DNA from: Oceanithermus profundus DSM 14977
GTDB lineage: Bacteria; Deinococcota; Deinococci; Deinococcales; Marinithermaceae
Direction of reading: 5' to 3'
Length of the DNA stretch: 64,000 bases
Assembly: GCF_000183745.1 (NCBI RefSeq)
Contig: NC_014761.1
Coordinates: 558,001-622,000, forward strand
Shown: positions 1,095 through 8,044 of the stretch, piece after piece
How positions within the stretch are numbered: the stretch's first letter is position 1
Layout of the letters: every line of letters begins with the position of its first letter
Notes under the pieces: model-generated
The model's database searches: none
Told to the model about the DNA's origin: nothing
The model's input: only the letters and a program-made list of their open reading frames with translations
Translations under genes and position numbers: made by a program

Positions 1095-1127
1095 GTTTAC
1101 CTCCTGTTAACCTCGCCGCCCCAGGCT
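1095..1127 (+). promoter_or_regulatory. direct-repeat promoter of the DUF5666 lipoprotein gene
   Basis: GTTTAC (1095-1100) and GTTAAC (1106-1111) form an 11-bp direct repeat. After exactly 10 bp comes a -10-like CAGGCT (1122-1127), itself inside the palindrome CCAGGCT-GT-AGCCTGG. No -35 hexamer is present. The same geometry occurs at 2681 and 7221. Eleven-bp repeats that replace the -35 are the hallmark of OmpR/PhoB-family activation, and an OmpR-family regulator is encoded at 4546. Confidence 0.55.
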
Positions 1128-1145
1128 GTAGCCTGGAGGTTCAAG

Positions 1146-2618
1146 ATGAGGATCAAAGGAGTACAAGGTTTACTCGCACTCACCACGTTGTTGGTGCTCG
1201 CCGCCTGCGGCACCCAGCCCGGCGCGAACACCGCCACGTCGGTCACCCTCGCGGGTGTGGTGGGTGGCACGGACGCCAACCCCACGCTTTCGGGTCAGGC
1301 GCTCGACCTTTCGTCGGCCAGCGTCACCGTCAACGGCGACGCCGTGCAGACGAGCGTGCGGCCCGGCATGTTCATCTACGCCCAGGGTGTGAGCCAGGGC
1401 GGCACCACCCGGGTGCAGTCGGTGGACGTGCAGATCGAGGTCAAGGGTCCGATCGAGAGCGTCGACGTCGCCGCCTCCCTGCTCACCCTGGTCGGGCAGA
1501 CCGTGAGCGTGGACGCGCTCACCCGCATCTACGAGGAGAACCCCGACGACACCTACACCACGCTGGCCCTCGCCGATCTGCAGCCGGGCGACTACGTCGA
1601 GGTCTCGGGCACCCGCCAGGCCGACGGCTCGGTGCTGGCCACCCGGATCGAGCGCAAGCTGGTGAGCTCCAGCGACCCCGAATACGGGCAGGTGGAGGTC
1701 AAGGGCACCGCGACCAACCTCGACACGACCGCGATGACCTTCGATCTGGGGGCCTATGCGGTGGATTACAGCGGAGCCACCGTCGAGGGCACCCCGGCCG
1801 AGGGCGCGTTCGTCGAGGTCAAGGGCCAGATCGACACCGCGGCGATGACGATCACCGCCACCAAGGTGGAGTTCAAGTCCGGGGACGCGGGGATGGACCA
1901 CGACGGCGACAAGGCGGAGCTCTACGGTCCGGTGGTCAACCTGGACGAGGCGGCCATGACCTTCGAGCTCGGCGGCTTCCTGGTCGACTACGGCAGCGCC
2001 ACCCTCGAGGGCACGCTCGCCGAGGGCGCTTACGTCGAGGTGAAGGGCACCTTTGACGCCGACGATCCCGCACTGATCCACGCCACCAAGGTGGAGGTCA
2101 AGTACGAGGACGGCGGCGAGGGCTCGAGCTACGGCGAGGTCAAGGGGCCGGTCGAGGCCATCGACACGGCCGCGATGTGGATCACCGTGGCGGGCCAGAC
2201 CTTCTGGGCCGACGCCAACACCATCGTCAAGCAGGACGACCCCGACGGCCCGCTCAGCTTCGATCAGGTGCAGGTCGGCGACTGGGTCGAGGTCAAGTAC
2301 GGCGACGCCACCGACGCCGACGGCCGCTTCTACGCCACCAAGATCGAGGTCAAGGGCGGCGCCTCGGACGGCGAGGGCCACGAGGGCTACCATGAGCTCG
2401 AGGGTGCGGCCGCCGGCGTGGACGCCGCGGTGATGACCTTCCAGCTCGGCGGCTACACCGTGGTCGTGAACGACGCCACCGTCTACGAGGTCTTTGACGC
2501 CTACGTCTCCGCCGCCGACTTCTGGAACCAGCTCGGCGAGGGCGACCGCGTCGAGGTGAAGGGGAACGTCGACGAGAACGGCGACTTCCTGGCCGTCAAG
2601 ATCGAGCGCAGCAACTGA
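1146..2618 (+). CDS. lipoprotein with about six DUF5666-type repeats
   Basis: A 490-residue protein starting with a signal peptide ending in a lipobox (LVLAAC, Cys about residue 21), so it is probably anchored to a membrane facing the periplasm. The rest is about six modules of 65-90 residues. The typical module begins G-P-V-x3-D-x2-AMTF-x-LGG and ends G-x-x-VEVKG...ATKVEVK, the pattern of DUF5666 beta-domains. Composition is acidic. The ATG is preceded by GGAGGT at good spacing. It is a separate unit, with a palindrome terminator on each side and its own direct-repeat promoter. A second DUF5666-like protein is encoded at 6454 in the same locus. The molecular function of DUF5666 is not known to me. 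Confidence 0.8.
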   Translation: MRIKGVQGLLALTTLLVLAACGTQPGANTATSVTLAGVVGGTDANPTLSGQALDLSSASVTVNGDAVQTSVRPGMFIYAQGVSQGGTTRVQSVDVQIEVKGPIESVDVAASLLTLVGQTVSVDALTRIYEENPDDTYTTLALADLQPGDYVEVSGTRQADGSVLATRIERKLVSSSDPEYGQVEVKGTATNLDTTAMTFDLGAYAVDYSGATVEGTPAEGAFVEVKGQIDTAAMTITATKVEFKSGDAGMDHDGDKAELYGPVVNLDEAAMTFELGGFLVDYGSATLEGTLAEGAYVEVKGTFDADDPALIHATKVEVKYEDGGEGSSYGEVKGPVEAIDTAAMWITVAGQTFWADANTIVKQDDPDGPLSFDQVQVGDWVEVKYGDATDADGRFYATKIEVKGGASDGEGHEGYHELEGAAAGVDAAVMTFQLGGYTVVVNDATVYEVFDAYVSAADFWNQLGEGDRVEVKGNVDENGDFLAVKIERSN

Positions 2619-2646
2619 GCCGACACCATCGTGCACCTGCTTTCCG

Positions 2647-2681
2647 CGCCGCCGCGGGGTCCTGTGGACCCCGCGGCGGCG
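2647..2681 (+). terminator. 16-bp-stem terminator hairpin
   Basis: A perfect 16-bp GC-rich stem (2647-2662 with 2666-2681) with a TGT loop follows the DUF5666 gene by about 30 bp. The last base of the stem is the first base of the next promoter's direct repeat, so terminator and promoter abut exactly and the short TTT tail belongs to both. Confidence 0.7.
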
Positions 2682-2713
2682 TTTACCTGGCGTTAACGCC
2701 GCGACCCTAGGCT
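2681..2713 (+). promoter_or_regulatory. direct-repeat promoter of the yceI-cytochrome-two-component operon
   Basis: GTTTAC (2681-2686) and GTTAAC (2692-2697) are spaced 11 bp apart, followed after 10 bp by TAGGCT (2708-2713) as -10. The leader to the ATG at 2755 is about 35 nt. Because the operon includes the response regulator, this site would make the regulator autoregulated if it is the cognate box (inference). Confidence 0.6.
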
Positions 2714-2754
2714 TTGTAAGGGAAGGAACGTTTGTGTTGGGGGAGGGAGTGGAG

Positions 2755-3294
2755 ATGCGAACGAAAGCTTGGTGGTTCCTGCTGATTGTGGCCTTCGCGC
2801 CGGTGCTGGCGGCGAACGCCTACGACGTCAGCGGCCACATCGTCTACGAAGCCAAGGGCCCGATCGGCGCGTTCAAAGGGGAGAACACCGCGGTCAGCGG
2901 CGCGCTGACCTGGGACCCGGAGCAGCAGACCGCCTCGGGCCGCGTCTGCGTCGACCTGGCGGCCTGGGACTCGGGCGAGCCGCTGCGCGACAAGCACACC
3001 CGCACCATGTTCGAGACCGACGTCTACCCGGAGGCCTGCTTCGAGCTCGAGGGCGTGCGCCCCGGGGCGGCGGCCGACGAGATCGTCCTGGAGGGCCGGC
3101 TTTCGATGCACGGCGTCACGTTGCCGCTGGAGATTCCCGGCAAGCTCGTGCAGAAGGCGGACGGCCGGCTCTACTTCGCGGGCTACTTCGAGACGAGGAT
3201 CACCGACTGGGGGATGAAGCGGCCCAGCATGATGGGCTTCAAGGTGCGGGACCTGGTCAAGGTGTGGGTCTACGGTGAGGGGGTGCCGCAATGA
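2755..3294 (+). CDS. YceI family periplasmic protein
   Basis: A 179-residue protein with a clear Sec signal peptide (RTKAWWFLLIVAFAPVLAANA) and a YceI lipocalin-like domain: it begins YDVSGHIVYEAKGPIGAFKG, has HTRTMFETDVYPEACFEL in the middle and MHGVTLPLEI late. YceI proteins bind long isoprenoids or amphiphiles in the periplasm, and several sit next to cytochromes, as here. I chose the ATG at 2755 over an upstream TTG because it carries a GGAG ribosome site and starts the signal peptide cleanly. It overlaps the cytochrome gene by 4 bp (ATGA), the first step of a tightly coupled six-gene operon. Confidence 0.85.
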   Translation: MRTKAWWFLLIVAFAPVLAANAYDVSGHIVYEAKGPIGAFKGENTAVSGALTWDPEQQTASGRVCVDLAAWDSGEPLRDKHTRTMFETDVYPEACFELEGVRPGAAADEIVLEGRLSMHGVTLPLEIPGKLVQKADGRLYFAGYFETRITDWGMKRPSMMGFKVRDLVKVWVYGEGVPQ

Positions 3295-4112
3295 CGCTGC
3301 CCCGCTGGAGCTGGCTCGCGTTGCTCCTGCTCCTCGGCCTGGTGCTGGCCGAAGGCGGGCGCTACCTCTGGGTGACCGTGGACCCCGAGACGCAGGCGCT
3401 GGGCCTCTCCGACGGCTCGCCGCTGCCGGCGGGGCTCGAGGGCCGCGTCGTGCCCGGTCAGTTCGTCGAGGTGAAGAACGGCCGCTTCGAGATCAAGAAG
3501 GACTGGCGGCCGCCGCTGGACATCGAGAAGACCTTCGTCCATCAGGACGCGCGCCGCGTCGTCTTCAGCCACGAGCGCCACTTCGCGGCGTTGGGGGCCA
3601 AGGGCGCCGCCTGCGAGGCCTGCCACGCCAGCCTGGACGAGGCCGTGAGCTGGCCCAGCCGCGCCCCCGACCCCGCGCTCGAGCCCCACGCCGAGGCCTC
3701 CCAGGGGCGGTTCTGTTCGACCTGCCACGACGGGGAGCGGACCGTCCTCGACGTGACCGCGAAGATGGAAGGGGCCCGCCCGCCGGTGGACGCGCGCATC
3801 TTCACCGCCTTCGGCCGCAGCGGCGACGAGAGCTGCAGCCGCTGCCACGCGCCCAAAGACCACGGGCAGGACTTCGTTCCCTGGCACGGCGAGGGGGCCG
3901 AGGACGGCCGCGCGGCCGCGAACTGCAGCAGCTGCCACCGCGGCGCCGAGGCGATCACGCCGGAGGAGACCCGGCAGGCGCAGGCGTTCTATCATGATCA
4001 GATGAAGCTGTTGCGTGACCCCGAGAACGAGCAGGCGTTCAACACCACGTTGCCGAACAACTTCTGCGCCTACTGCCACGGCCTCGACCTCAAGGCCTGG
4101 AGGGGGGACTAG
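3291..4112 (+). CDS. pentaheme c-type cytochrome
   Basis: A 273-residue protein with an N-terminal hydrophobic segment (about residues 7-22; uncleaved anchor or signal peptide) and five CXXCH heme-binding motifs at about residues 108, 142, 182, 212 and 260 (CEACH, CSTCH, CSRCH, CSSCH, CAYCH). The spacing and Cys/His-rich body resemble small multiheme electron-transfer proteins of the cytochrome c3/c7 superfamily rather than any enzyme I can name. It should sit on the outer face of the cytoplasmic membrane and pass electrons. It is translationally coupled to yceI and followed after 2 bp by a small membrane protein and the two-component genes. Confidence 0.8.
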   Translation: MTLPRWSWLALLLLLGLVLAEGGRYLWVTVDPETQALGLSDGSPLPAGLEGRVVPGQFVEVKNGRFEIKKDWRPPLDIEKTFVHQDARRVVFSHERHFAALGAKGAACEACHASLDEAVSWPSRAPDPALEPHAEASQGRFCSTCHDGERTVLDVTAKMEGARPPVDARIFTAFGRSGDESCSRCHAPKDHGQDFVPWHGEGAEDGRAAANCSSCHRGAEAITPEETRQAQAFYHDQMKLLRDPENEQAFNTTLPNNFCAYCHGLDLKAWRGD

Positions 4113-4114
4113 CC

Positions 4115-4549
4115 GTGAACTGGTTGCGCAAGCGTTTTCCCGCACTGGTGATGCTCTGGATCGCCGGCAGCTTCGGCATGCTCGCGCTCGAGCTGCTGAT
4201 GACCGGGCACACCGAGGAGACCCAGATCCTGGGCGTGCTCGCCAGCGCGGCCGGAGCGCTGATCGCGCTGCTGGCGCTCCTCGTGCCCCGGCTACGGGTC
4301 GGCTGGCTGGTGGGTTTCTTGGTCGTGGGCCTCTTCGGGCTCGTGGGCACCGCCCTGCACTGGGAGGAGGCCGGCGAATCGGAGGGGGCCGCTTACACGG
4401 CCGCGCGGTACGATGACGACGAGGGCGAGGACGGAGAGGACGGAGAGGCCGCGCCGCCGCCGCTGGCGCCGCTGGGCCTGACGGGGCTGGCCGCGCTGGG
4501 CGGGCTGGCGCTCTACGCGCGTGAAGAGGAGGCCGAGGAGGTCGGATGA
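4115..4549 (+). CDS. small membrane protein with acidic loop, unknown function
   Basis: A 144-residue protein with three N-terminal hydrophobic helices (about residues 10-29, 40-59, 64-85), then an acidic, low-complexity stretch rich in Asp, Glu and Gly (about 95-115), then another hydrophobic segment (about 119-135) and a charged tail. I do not recognise the family. It starts with GTG 2 bp after the cytochrome stop and its stop overlaps the response regulator start (ATGA). It could be an accessory membrane partner of the cytochrome or of the sensor kinase; this is inference from position only. Confidence 0.6.
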   Translation: MNWLRKRFPALVMLWIAGSFGMLALELLMTGHTEETQILGVLASAAGALIALLALLVPRLRVGWLVGFLVVGLFGLVGTALHWEEAGESEGAAYTAARYDDDEGEDGEDGEAAPPPLAPLGLTGLAALGGLALYAREEEAEEVG

Positions 4550-5208
4550 GGATCCTGCTGGTCGAGGACGAGGCGTCGCTGCGCGAGCCGATGGCGGCCT
4601 ACGTGCGCAGCATGGGGTACGACGTCGACGAGGCCGATTCCATCGAGGCGGCCCGTGAGGCGCTCTACGACGCCGAGCCCGACCTGGTGATCCTCGACGT
4701 GATGTTGCCCGAAGGCGTGGACGCGGGCTTCGAGTTCGCCAGCGAGCTGCGCGAAGCGGGGTTCGACGGCCCGGTGCTCTTCATCACCGCGCGCGACGCG
4801 GTGGAGGACCGGGTGCGCGGCCTCGACCTGGGCGGCGACGACTACCTGACCAAGCCCTTCAGCCTCGAGGAGCTGGCCGCGCGGGTCCGGGCGCTGCTCA
4901 GGCGGCAGGGATCGGTGCGCCGCAGCTTCTTCGAGCGCGGGCCCCTGCGCGTGGACTACGCGGCGCGCAAGGTGCACTGGCAGGGGCGCGAGGTCGCCCT
5001 CTCGGGGCGCGAGTTCGCGCTCATCGAGCTCTTCTCGCTCCACCCGGACCGGGTCTACAGCGCCGAGGAGCTGCTCGAGCGCCTCTTCCCGGGCACCGAC
5101 TCGGGGCTCAAGATCGTGCGTGTCTACGTGCACCGCCTGCGCACCAAGCTGGGCCCCGAGGTGGTGCAGACGGTGGCCGGCGGGTACCGGCTGGGGTTGG
5201 AACCGTGA
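4546..5208 (+). CDS. OmpR-family response regulator
   Basis: A 220-residue two-domain regulator. The receiver domain has the acidic pocket (E7-D8), the phosphoacceptor Asp at residue 51 (LVILDVMLPEG) and the YLTKPF Lys near residue 104. The C-terminal half is a winged-helix DNA-binding domain (ALSGREFALIELF, then VRVYVHRLRTKLG and VVQTVAGGYRL). OmpR/PhoB regulators bind 11-bp direct repeats as tandem dimers, and three such repeats lie in this locus (1095, 2681, 7221). It overlaps the upstream membrane protein gene and the downstream kinase gene by 4 bp each. Confidence 0.95.
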   Translation: MRILLVEDEASLREPMAAYVRSMGYDVDEADSIEAAREALYDAEPDLVILDVMLPEGVDAGFEFASELREAGFDGPVLFITARDAVEDRVRGLDLGGDDYLTKPFSLEELAARVRALLRRQGSVRRSFFERGPLRVDYAARKVHWQGREVALSGREFALIELFSLHPDRVYSAEELLERLFPGTDSGLKIVRVYVHRLRTKLGPEVVQTVAGGYRLGLEP

Positions 5209-6461
5209 GCCTGAGGCTGCGCATCGCTCTGGGCACCGCGGCCATCGCCGCGGTGGCTGCGGGGCTGCACTTCGTGGTCGGCTACCTCAGCTTCTCGGAG
5301 CTGTTGCGCGAGGACATCCAGCGCGACCTCGAGGTCTGGTCGGGGGCGGTGGCCGGCACCCTGGTCTTCCAGCAGGGGCGGCCGGCGCTCGCGGGCTCCG
5401 ACTGGCCCTGGGTGAGCGCCGGCGGTTCGCTGGGCTTCCGCGTGCGCAAGGGCAACGTCATCTACATCGAAGGCGGGGTGCTGCCCGAGGCGCAGGACCC
5501 GAACTGGGTCTGGACGGAGAAGCCCCTGCAGGACGGTTACGTGCTCGAGGTGGTGGCCTACGTGGGCGAGTACCGCAAGGCGCTGGCGGGGCAGCTGCGG
5601 GCGGGCCTGGTGAGCCTTCCGCTCGTCGTCCTGCTCGCCAGCGGCCTGGGCTGGTGGCTCGCGGGGCGCATCGCCCGCCCCATCGGCCAGCTCTCCGACG
5701 CGGCCGACGCGCTCTCGTCGATGCGCTTTCCCGACCCGGTGCCCCCGCCGCCGGGCGGCGACGAACTCTCGCGCCTGGCGCGCAGCTTCAACCGGATGGT
5801 CTACGCGGTGCGCGAAGCGCTGGAGCGCGAGCGCGCCTTCACCCGCTACGCTTCGCACGAGCTGCGCACCCCGCTGGCCACGATGCAGGCGCAGCTCGAG
5901 GCCCTGGAAGCGGGGCTCACCCCTCAGGAGCGGGCGCTGCCGGAGGCGCGCAAGGCGATCGAGCGGATGCGCGGCATCCTGGAAGGGCTGCTGACGCTGA
6001 GCCGCGAGCCCCAGGTGACGCTCGAGCCCCTGCCCGCGGGCGCGGTGCTGCGCTCGCTGGTCGGGGGCCTGGGCGAGGCCGCACGGCGCGTGCGCCTCGA
6101 CCTGCCCGACGAGGAGGTCTGGGTCGTGGGCGACGAAGAGCTCCTCAGGCGCGCCGTCGGCAACCTGATCGACAACGCGCTCAAGTACAGCGAGGGACCG
6201 GTGGAGGTCCGCCTGGCCGCCGAGGGGGGCGAGGCCGTCCTCAGCGTGCGCGACCACGGCGACGGCGTCGCCGAGGACCAGCTCGAGCGCCTGGCCGACC
6301 CCTTCGTGCGCTTTCACACCCGCGTCGCGGGCACCGGCCTGGGGCTTTCGCTTTCCAAGCAGGCGGCCCGTGCCATGCGCGGCCGCCTCGGCTTCGAGCC
6401 GGCGCGGCCGGGGCTCCGCGCCTGGCTGCGCCTGCCGCTCGTGGAGGACGCCGATGCCTAG
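5205..6461 (+). CDS. sensor histidine kinase
   Basis: A 418-residue membrane kinase. A first membrane helix lies near residues 5-25, then an extracytoplasmic sensor region of about 100 residues, a second helix near 130-150, a HAMP-like linker, the H-box RYASHELRTPLA with phosphorylated His at about residue 218, then the N-box (NLIDNALKY), DHGDG and GTGLGLS ATP-binding motifs. The arrangement is that of a classical EnvZ/PhoR-type kinase whose partner is the adjacent response regulator. The sensor domain is not one I recognise, so the signal is unknown; the cytochrome, YceI and PepSY neighbours suggest a redox, metal or envelope cue (inference). Confidence 0.93.
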   Translation: MSLRLRIALGTAAIAAVAAGLHFVVGYLSFSELLREDIQRDLEVWSGAVAGTLVFQQGRPALAGSDWPWVSAGGSLGFRVRKGNVIYIEGGVLPEAQDPNWVWTEKPLQDGYVLEVVAYVGEYRKALAGQLRAGLVSLPLVVLLASGLGWWLAGRIARPIGQLSDAADALSSMRFPDPVPPPPGGDELSRLARSFNRMVYAVREALERERAFTRYASHELRTPLATMQAQLEALEAGLTPQERALPEARKAIERMRGILEGLLTLSREPQVTLEPLPAGAVLRSLVGGLGEAARRVRLDLPDEEVWVVGDEELLRRAVGNLIDNALKYSEGPVEVRLAAEGGEAVLSVRDHGDGVAEDQLERLADPFVRFHTRVAGTGLGLSLSKQAARAMRGRLGFEPARPGLRAWLRLPLVEDADA

Positions 6462-7212
6462 GTGGATGCGCGCCCTCGCCGCCGCACTGTTGCTGGCGCG
6501 CCTGCTGCCCGGCGGGGCGCTGGCCGCCGGCGCGCCCGACGCGGCGGCCCCTGCGTACGCCGCCGACGCCGGGCCGCAGACGGACGCCGCGGGGCCCGTT
6601 CTGAACGACGATGACGACGACGGCGGCGACGACGGCGGTGGCGGCGGCCACGACGACGACGGATCCGACGACGGCCACGAAGACGGGTCGGGCAGCGACG
6701 ACGGCCACGAAGACGACGGGCACGAGACCTACGACCGCCAGTACAGCTTCTACGGGCAGGTCCGCTGGTCGGGCGAGCGCACCATCGTGGGCAACCGCGA
6801 GCTCGTCGGAGACGACCCCTGGCTGCCCTACCTGGCGCCGGGCATGCGGCTCGAGGTCAAGGGCGAGGCCCAGGGCAGCCGCATCCTCGTCACCGAGATC
6901 GAGATCAAGTACCCGACGGCCTGGGCCTACTACCTGGGCCCGGCTCAGGTGATCGGCCTCGAGGGCGGCTGGATCCGCGCCTGGCTCTCGGGCTCGGCGG
7001 GGCGCGACCTCTTCAAGCTGCTGCCCGCGGCCGGCGAAACCACCCCGGTGCTGGTGGCCTGCTACGAACGCGGCAGCTGGCGTTCGGTGCCGCTCGGCCT
7101 GCGCCCCGACGCCCGCCCCCCCACCGACGGCTGGTGGCGGCTTTCCGGCCGCCTCAGCGGCTCCGGGGTCTCCTGGACGCTCGCCGGCCGGTTGCCGGGC
7201 GACTGCGACTGA
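6454..7212 (+). CDS. secreted DUF5666-like protein with Asp/His/Gly-rich region
   Basis: A 252-residue protein with a signal peptide (WMRALAAALLLARLLPGGALAA), then a low-complexity region of Asp, Gly and His (about residues 50-90), which looks metal-binding, and then one DUF5666-like module (SFYGQVRW, MRLEVKGEAQGSRILVTEIEIKY) and a beta-rich tail. The ATG at 6454 follows GTGGAGGA and overlaps the kinase stop by 8 bp, making it the last gene of the 2755-7212 operon. Its relation to the 1146 lipoprotein suggests both are effectors of the same response. Binding of divalent metal by the acidic/His tract is an inference. Confidence 0.75.
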   Translation: MPRWMRALAAALLLARLLPGGALAAGAPDAAAPAYAADAGPQTDAAGPVLNDDDDDGGDDGGGGGHDDDGSDDGHEDGSGSDDGHEDDGHETYDRQYSFYGQVRWSGERTIVGNRELVGDDPWLPYLAPGMRLEVKGEAQGSRILVTEIEIKYPTAWAYYLGPAQVIGLEGGWIRAWLSGSAGRDLFKLLPAAGETTPVLVACYERGSWRSVPLGLRPDARPPTDGWWRLSGRLSGSGVSWTLAGRLPGDCD

Positions 7213-7220
7213 GGCCGGGG

Positions 7221-7253
7221 CTTTACCCAAGCTTTACACGCCGCCTCCACAAT
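7221..7253 (+). promoter_or_regulatory. direct-repeat promoter of the PepSY gene
   Basis: CTTTAC occurs twice (7221-7226 and 7232-7237), exactly 11 bp apart, followed after 10 bp by CACAAT (7248-7253) as -10. This is the same geometry as at 1095 and 2681. It also decides the start codon: an ATG at 7252 would lie inside the -10, so translation must begin downstream at 7273. Confidence 0.6.
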
Positions 7254-7272: not shown

Positions 7273-7980
7273 ATGAAAAAAACGACCTACATCCTCACGG
7301 CGGTACTCGGACTCACGGCGCTGGCTCTGGTCTTCGCGCAGGGCATGATGGGCGGCTACGGCTACCCGCAGGGTTCGGGCTACGGCTACGGCAGCGGCGG
7401 TTACGGCATGATGGGCGGTTACGGCGACGCCTCGCCCTGGGGCGGACCCGGCTACGGCATGGGCATGGGCATGGGGGGCTACGGCATGGGCGGCATGATG
7501 ATGGGCGGCGTCTACCTGCCCGACGCACGCCCGCTGGCCGAGGACGAAGCCAAGGCGCGGCTGCAGTCCTTCGTGGACCGCTTCGCCCCGGGGGCGCAGG
7601 TCCGCGACCTCATGGCCTTCTCGCAGAACTACTACGCCCAGATCGTGGACAAGGACGGCCGCGGCCTGGGTGAGGTGCTGGTCGACCGCTACACCGGCGC
7701 GGTCTACCCCGAACCCGGCCCCAACATGATGTGGAACCGCGGGCCCGCGGGCTGGGGCGTGCCGGCGCGCTACGACCTGGAGGCCGCGAAGCAGCTGGCC
7801 GAGAACTTCCTGGACGGCTTCCTGCCGGGCGCGCGGATCATGGAGGAGCAGGCCTTCTCGGGCTACTACACCTTCGACTTCGGCCGCGACGGCATCGAGG
7901 GCATGCTCTCGATCAACGCCTACACGGGCGAGGTCTGGGTGCACAGCTGGCACGGCCCCTTCCTCGGGGAAGACGAGTAG
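7273..7980 (+). CDS. secreted PepSY-domain protein with Met/Gly/Tyr-rich N-terminus
   Basis: A 235-residue protein with signal peptide (KKTTYILTAVLGLTALALVFA), then about 60 residues made almost only of Gly, Tyr and Met with repeated GGYGMM/GMGMGGYG units, then two PepSY-like repeats (about residues 85-150 and 165-230: EDEAKARLQSFVDRF...; LEAAKQLAENFLDGF...). Met-rich periplasmic tracts commonly bind Cu(I), and the next gene is a copper ATPase, so a copper-sequestering or sensing role is plausible but inferred. The start at 7273 has GGAGGT seven bases upstream. The promoter carries the same 11-bp repeat as the two-component operon. Confidence 0.75.
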   Translation: MKKTTYILTAVLGLTALALVFAQGMMGGYGYPQGSGYGYGSGGYGMMGGYGDASPWGGPGYGMGMGMGGYGMGGMMMGGVYLPDARPLAEDEAKARLQSFVDRFAPGAQVRDLMAFSQNYYAQIVDKDGRGLGEVLVDRYTGAVYPEPGPNMMWNRGPAGWGVPARYDLEAAKQLAENFLDGFLPGARIMEEQAFSGYYTFDFGRDGIEGMLSINAYTGEVWVHSWHGPFLGEDE

Positions 7981-8016
7981 CCTTGCGAAACGGCCCCAAG
8001 CGCTCGACCGTTCAAC

Positions 8017-8044
8017 CCCACCCCGGGAGGGGTGGGTGTATACT
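8017..8044 (+). promoter_or_regulatory. copA promoter with CsoR-like operator
   Basis: The inverted repeat CCCACCCC-GGGA-GGGGTGGG (8017-8036) sits directly upstream of a good -10, TATACT (8039-8044), covering the spot where a -35 would be. GC-rich inverted repeats with C-runs and G-runs upstream of copA are typical CsoR operators. No CsoR gene is in this window. Repressor identity is inferred. Confidence 0.55.

Follow-up and report, generated by a model that had tools for sequence, protein, structure and literature searches.

Which regulator reads the three similar promoters that surround a two-component system of Oceanithermus profundus DSM 14977? The system consists of response regulator 1 (RR1, 4546-5208) and histidine kinase 1 (HK1, 5205-6461) and lies within a 64,000-nucleotide stretch (the window, chromosome 558001-622000) of a contig of 2,303,940 bases. 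An earlier note on this DNA had proposed that a repeat with an 11-base pair (bp) period, found at 1095, 2681, and 7221, marks a single autoregulated regulon of RR1. Comparison with related genomes makes a different arrangement likely, in which one O. profundus island contains two interleaved sister two-component systems of the OmpR/PhoB family, each reading its own version of the 11-bp repeat. Coordinates below refer to the window unless given as chromosome positions, and all window features lie on the forward strand.

The three sites read GTTTAC-ctcct-GTTAAC-N10-CAGGCT (repeat at 1095-1111), GTTTAC-ctggc-GTTAAC-N10-TAGGCT (2681-2697), and CTTTAC-ccaag-CTTTAC-N10-CACAAT (7221-7237). All three repeats are where the earlier note had placed them, and the N5 and N10 spacings are constant. 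None of the sites carries a -35 consensus, as had also been claimed, because the hexamers at a 17-bp spacer read ACCTCC, ACCTGG, and ACCCAA, respectively. The proposed TANNNT form of the -10 element holds at 2681 only, where TAGGCT (2708-2713) gives the single match in the window to the pattern including TANNNT; the candidate -10 elements at 1095 (CAGGCT, 1122-1127) and 7221 (CACAAT, 7248-7253) are of the form CANNNT. At 1095, where the -10 element is proposed from consensus and spacing, a competing -10 (TAGCCT, 1129-1134) is located 17 bp downstream of the repeat.

The repeat is not a product of chance, being rare and clustered with empty controls. We searched the genome of 2,439,291 bases on two contigs with the strict repeat STTTAC-N5-STTWAC (S, C or G; W, A or T), using the reversed pattern as control. 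The strict repeat matched six times on the forward strand and not at all on the reverse strand, with no control match, and five of the six matches are clustered within 16.1 kb (chromosome 549147-565237). The idea thus survived the objection, anticipated in the earlier note, that the motif might be frequent genome-wide. Among 14 genomes of the family, 42 matches were found in 11, again with no control match. When the gap was allowed to vary over 1-21 bases and the first S was omitted, the 5-base gap accounted for 6 of the 19 matches in the O. profundus genome, with 7 control matches. Allowing one mismatch and a loose -10 element gave 12 matches genome-wide and one in the control. This relaxed search adds a C-type site upstream of a CueP gene (chromosome 551206) and a G-type site upstream of a gene for an acidic exported protein (chromosome 64913); four others (chromosome 275375, 538648, 817457, and 2072115) were judged to be chance or unclear matches. 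The acidic protein resembles proteins encoded behind G-type boxes in two other genomes (G012, 33% over 94 residues, E 3e-11; G005, 35% over 206 columns, E 2e-20, partly via the acidic tail).

A second OmpR-type system, RR2/HK2 (chromosome 549447-551221, with RR2 at 549447-550115), is located 13 kb upstream of RR1, outside the window, in a copper cluster. Two further sites of the repeat cluster lie there, at chromosome 549147 and 556116. The former precedes a gene for a short methionine-rich SHOCT protein, followed by RR2 and HK2 and then by genes for a CueP-family protein, a multicopper oxidase, a DUF3105 protein, and a copper P-type ATPase; the latter precedes a DUF302 gene. The sixth site in the genome (chromosome 486063) stands in front of a cupredoxin gene, at a distance of 63 kb from RR2. 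RR1 and RR2 share 46% identity in alignment, and both consist of receiver and Trans_reg_C winged-helix domains, which identifies both as OmpR/PhoB-family response regulators.

The boxes fall into two classes according to the first base of the half-sites. The 42 family matches comprise 23 C..C, 17 G..G, and 2 mixed G..C boxes. To follow them upstream of orthologues, we scored each candidate out of 15, with the -10 element included and C and G treated alike, and counted scores of at least 13 as a box. Boxes precede 13 of 14 DUF5666 orthologues and seven of ten RR1 genes; two more RR1 genes, in O. profundus and G002, have the box at the operon start, and because RR1 lies inside the operon there, no box is expected directly upstream of it. 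The counts are 8/9 for DUF302, 6/6 for SHOCT-RR2, and 5/5 for CueP genes, and lower for the multicopper oxidase (2/6) and DUF3105 (1/7) genes. The gene behind the 7221 site has a box in 3/3 orthologues, all from the same genus, those of other genera being unaligned near the start. Ten other cluster genes, mostly inside transcription units, gave 0 of 70 at this score. The boxes are thus conserved upstream of orthologues, one of the points on which, according to the earlier note, its idea could fail. At position 12, the first base of the second half-site, the 24 RR1-linked boxes carry 21 G, 3 A, and no C, and the RR2-linked boxes carry C in 25/25. Among distinct cores, C occurs at this position in 0/19 RR1-linked and 17/17 RR2-linked boxes (p 1e-10, a value not to be taken literally because the sequences share ancestry). 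A C-type match at the rhodanese gene in L214 and an L281 row labelled RR2, which is the DUF5666 box of that locus, were left out of the class count. The recognition helices differ in step with the class, RVVDVHxAxLRKKL in RR2 vs. a sequence around VRVYVHRLRxKL in most RR1 relatives, with exceptions in L241, L247, L248, and L254. Because upstream of orthologues the C class goes with RR2 and G or A with RR1, the G-type sites at 1095 and 2681 most likely belong to RR1 and the C-type site at 7221 to RR2.

The association extends across the order. As a control, we took the 600 bases upstream of 30 loci of other OmpR-type regulators (25 distinct genes) from the same genomes; none of the 30 reached 13, the best scoring 12, so we rejected the idea that OmpR-type regulators generally have this box at their promoters. 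Among the RR2 loci of the family, nine of ten score 14/15 and one scores 12, and elsewhere in the order 22 of the 40 examined (of 43 known) score at least 13. Shuffled sequences reached 13 in at most 0.3% of cases, and one reverse strand in the order set scores 14. With RR2 presence called at E 1e-75 or better, 49 of 111 genomes of the order carry RR2. Strict C-boxes with TANNNT, a form that misses many family promoters because their -10 element begins with C, occur at 84 sites in 41 of the 111 genomes (control, 0) and are present in 33/49 genomes with RR2 vs. 8/62 without it; in one genus (g13) they occur in 20/20 and 1/7, respectively. Of these 84 C-boxes, 57 have RR2 within 10 kb, and not one has an RR1 relative that close (94 of the 119 rows of RR1 relatives entered this distance count). 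The strict G-box was found at 18 sites in 15 genomes (control, 0), 11 of them within 10 kb of RR1 and one within 10 kb of RR2. A broader search of genome contigs for RR1 relatives was not used; among its best 80 of 586 matches, the top identity was 47% and no Thermales genus was listed.

Gene order around the 7221 gene points in the same direction as its box. In G007, G008, G010, and G011, its orthologue directly follows the PspA and rhodanese genes. In the first three, RR1 resides with DUF5666, YceI, and cytochrome genes on other contigs; RR1 was not found in the incomplete assembly of G011. The RR1 module sits between the rhodanese and 7221 genes in O. profundus and G002, and in G003 both junctions are seen, each on its own contig. 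Upstream of the 7221 gene, G007 has a C-box and G010 a degenerate one; none was found there in G008 or G011. Since the simpler order in four genomes joins the 7221 gene to the rhodanese gene, with the RR1 module elsewhere where found, the most plausible reading is that the 7221 gene belongs to the RR2 regulon and that the RR1 module lies inside that regulon.

Conservation upstream of orthologues, the 11-bp half-site distance, and the position in the -35 place support the earlier suggestion that the repeat is a PhoB/OmpR-type operator. On the arrangement we favor, RR2/HK2 would read the C-box CTTTAC-N5-CTTWAC, placed 10 bp upstream of the -10 element, and would control its own operon, the CueP-multicopper oxidase-DUF3105-copper ATPase genes, the DUF302 gene, the distant cupredoxin gene, and the 7221 gene. 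RR1/HK1 would read the G-box GTTTAC-N5-GTTWAC, at the same distance from the -10 element, in front of its own operon (2681) and of the gene for the DUF5666 lipoprotein (1095), and its targets probably include the acidic exported protein encoded at chromosome 64913. In both cases, the phosphorylated regulator, bound as a tandem dimer, would occupy the -35 place and recruit RNA polymerase, thereby switching on the target genes and the regulator's own gene. Discrimination between the box classes may lie largely in position 1 of the half-site together with the recognition helix. RR2/HK2 most likely responds to copper, as we infer from the target genes and from methionine and histidine residues in the HK2 loop; kinases of other genera, with a shorter loop, have fewer of them. 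Copper control is predicted from the CueP, multicopper oxidase, and cupredoxin genes that stand behind C-boxes, and the genes behind C-boxes in Thermales relatives include those for DUF305, CueP, multicopper oxidase, and SHOCT proteins. RR1 boxes precede genes for the DUF5666 lipoprotein, YceI, multihaem cytochromes (3291-4112 in the window and a second in G002), and an aspartate/histidine-rich exported protein, which suggest periplasmic redox or metal handling.

The identical spacing of the three sites around RR1, the nearly equal remainder of their half-sites, and the 46% identity of the two regulators speak for the earlier proposal that RR1 alone controls all three promoters and tolerates the C/G difference. 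We consider this improbable, and not the best reading, because the two classes separate completely by the linked regulator in the orthologue set; moreover, no strict C-box of the order lies near RR1 (0/84 within 10 kb), and the C-box of the 7221 gene lies in the RR2 cluster in G007 and G010, where RR1 is on another contig. The same closeness of the half-sites, along with the interleaved promoters and the mixed G..C boxes in G008 and G009, could instead reflect one shared regulon, in which each regulator binds the two classes, though not equally strongly, the island is jointly controlled, and the 7221 gene answers to both. This is unlikely in view of the clean class split across genera, which suggests selection for separate reading, and of genomes with one regulator, which keep mainly the class of that regulator (in G004 a G-box stands at RR1 and the sole C..C match lacks a -10 element). 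It is very improbable that the boxes belong to another factor or to a promoter element unrelated to two-component control: binding of the regulators is deduced from sequence, and some genomes have strict C-boxes without RR2, yet the boxes are linked to and co-occur with the regulators, are absent upstream of the 30 paralogue loci, and have the direct-repeat form of known OmpR/PhoB-family sites, which are bound by tandem dimers (PMC4832192).

Several observations weigh against the assignment of each class to its own regulator, which we nevertheless prefer. Strict C-boxes are missing from 16/49 genomes with RR2 and present in 8/62 without it (in one of the latter, G026, the C-box stands at the CueP gene), and these co-occurrence counts are not independent because the 111 genomes are related. 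Of the 40 RR2 loci examined in the order, 18 stay below 13 within 600 bases, several of these being copies that follow a DUF3105 gene. Only 4/9 YceI genes have a box, and the 7221 gene is boxed in two of the four genomes with the simpler gene order. Mixed G..C boxes occur in G008:C83 and, in front of RR2, in G009:C143. G-boxes were found in G003, G005, and G011, incomplete assemblies in which RR1 was not found. C-boxes also precede genes without a copper link, e.g., those for DsbD-like proteins and an alpha/beta hydrolase. In addition, the agreement of the -10 elements is inflated by their inclusion in the 15-point score.

How far do the two systems resemble characterized ones? In Escherichia coli, the pho box has the half-site CTGTCAT and stands in for the -35 element, 10 bp away from the -10 element. 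This half-site differs from the boxes here; PhoB is alike in family, direct-repeat site, targeting of its own gene, and the strict spacing to core elements described for its promoters (PMC10294691). Neither regulator reaches the cut-off of the curated PhoB model (296.2; RR1 162.6 and RR2 231.4 bits). The recognition helix region and model scores of RR1 lean toward PmrA/BasR and QseB, and PmrA/BasR structures are among the best solved-structure matches. The half-site of PmrA is YTTAAK with a 5-bp gap, and PmrA/BasR and QseB differ from RR1 in half-site and targets; scores fall below the cut-offs for PmrA (330; RR1 155.6, RR2 142.6 bits) and QseB (345; RR1 149.7 bits, RR2 not among the matches listed). 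Like the heavy-metal regulators CusR/CopR, RR2 is found beside copper genes, which here are preceded by C-boxes; it scores below the cut-offs of the heavy-metal response regulator model TIGR01387 (279.2; RR2 169.5, RR1 132.5 bits) and of the copper/silver regulator model NF007346 (420; RR2 139.4). The CpxR consensus of E. coli, GTAAA-N5-GTAAA, is the reverse complement of TTTAC-N5-TTTAC; a literature search for that consensus gave no match, and RR2 scores 174.5 bits against a CpxR model cut-off of 341. According to PMC4682146, BqsR of Pseudomonas aeruginosa is an OmpR-type activator that uses the pentamer repeat TTAAG-N6-TTAAG, 11 bp apart, with the downstream pentamer overlapping the -35 element at its own promoter. 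BqsR differs in half-site and answers to Fe(II); it is likened to RR1 by family and site form.

Neither the regulons nor these boxes were described in the literature that we searched by title and start of abstract, a partial coverage with few subscription papers; the kind of system is known, and these members appear new. Within the Oceanithermus family and its order, they provide an operator code for two conserved regulators that can be put to the test, and they assign the domain of unknown function DUF5666 to a defined regulon. They may also be a natural case of how sister regulators avoid cross-talk, in which swapping one base per half-site should swap the regulator. We lean neither for nor against a broader reading, that paralogous systems in Thermales are kept apart mainly by C vs. 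G at half-site position 1 and a fixed recognition-helix change, that they are interleaved without blurring in Oceanithermus, and that DUF5666 lipoproteins, YceI, and multihaem cytochromes form the basis of a periplasmic redox or metal response under RR1 that has not been described before.

The gene assignments of the earlier note were largely confirmed by Pfam. The gene behind the 1095 box encodes a multi-domain DUF5666 lipoprotein (1146-2618, E 1e-52 over five stretches). As had been claimed, one promoter would drive the regulator and kinase, the box at 2681 standing at the promoter of the YceI-cytochrome-RR1-HK1 operon. This operon encodes a YceI-family exported protein (2755-3294, E 2e-18), a multihaem c-type cytochrome (3291-4112, Cytochrome_C7, E 2.2e-11), a hydrophobic protein of 144 residues (4115-4549) without a match in the Pfam scan, RR1 (Response_reg, Trans_reg_C), HK1 (HAMP, HisKA, HATPase_c), and, at its end, an aspartate/histidine-rich protein of 252 residues, seen as a reading frame (6454-7212), likewise without a match in the Pfam scan. 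The PepSY protein of the earlier note is a methionine/glycine-rich protein (7273-7980) with a weak match to PepSY, which has an E value of 0.0038 and falls short of the curated cut-off. The predicted structure of the DUF5666 lipoprotein is a chain of small OB-like barrels (mean predicted local distance difference test score, pLDDT, 80.1). Its fold matches are OB-type barrels, with CusF and PilY2 among the best; we did not take a function from them, as they are too weak (Z at most 9.0, near the range counted as common).

Strong terminator-like hairpins are located at 1065-1090 (11-bp stem, z -3.4 vs. shuffles) and 2648-2680 (15-bp stem, z -5.5), and both are also present in G002. They end 4 and 0 bases before the G-boxes at 1095 and 2681, respectively, so that the TTT within the box could also serve as a short T-run. 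The idea that every box has a hairpin was rejected: a stem of at least 6 bp ending at most 5 bases from the box was found in 6/34 distinct family boxes vs. 2/34 at the control distance. Four of the six are the window's two G-boxes and their near copies in G002, so that the feature is not general.

A copper ATPase gene, copA (8063), was rejected as a regulon member, as it has no box upstream (score 9/15). The palindrome CCACCCCGGGAGGGGTGG at 8016-8033, upstream of copA, is one that we take to be CsoR-like. Because of this palindrome and the absence of a direct-repeat box, copA is likely controlled by another regulator.

Elsewhere, the mixed G..C box in G008:C83 (L204, 5695) precedes a gene for a 548-residue protein that is cytochrome-like as judged by eye. 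In another family of the order, four overlapping matches, CTTTACTCGAG, recur every 11 bp as a tandem half-site array (G015:C303:3934-3983). Near RR2, at G044:C9:12434-12506, C-boxes stand back to back on the two strands with 40 bp between them, and similar pairs occur in G047, G061, and G068. In G071:C39 (L314, 4044-4060), RR1 and a divergent ApbE gene are separated by G-boxes that overlap on the two strands, which suggests a shared operator.

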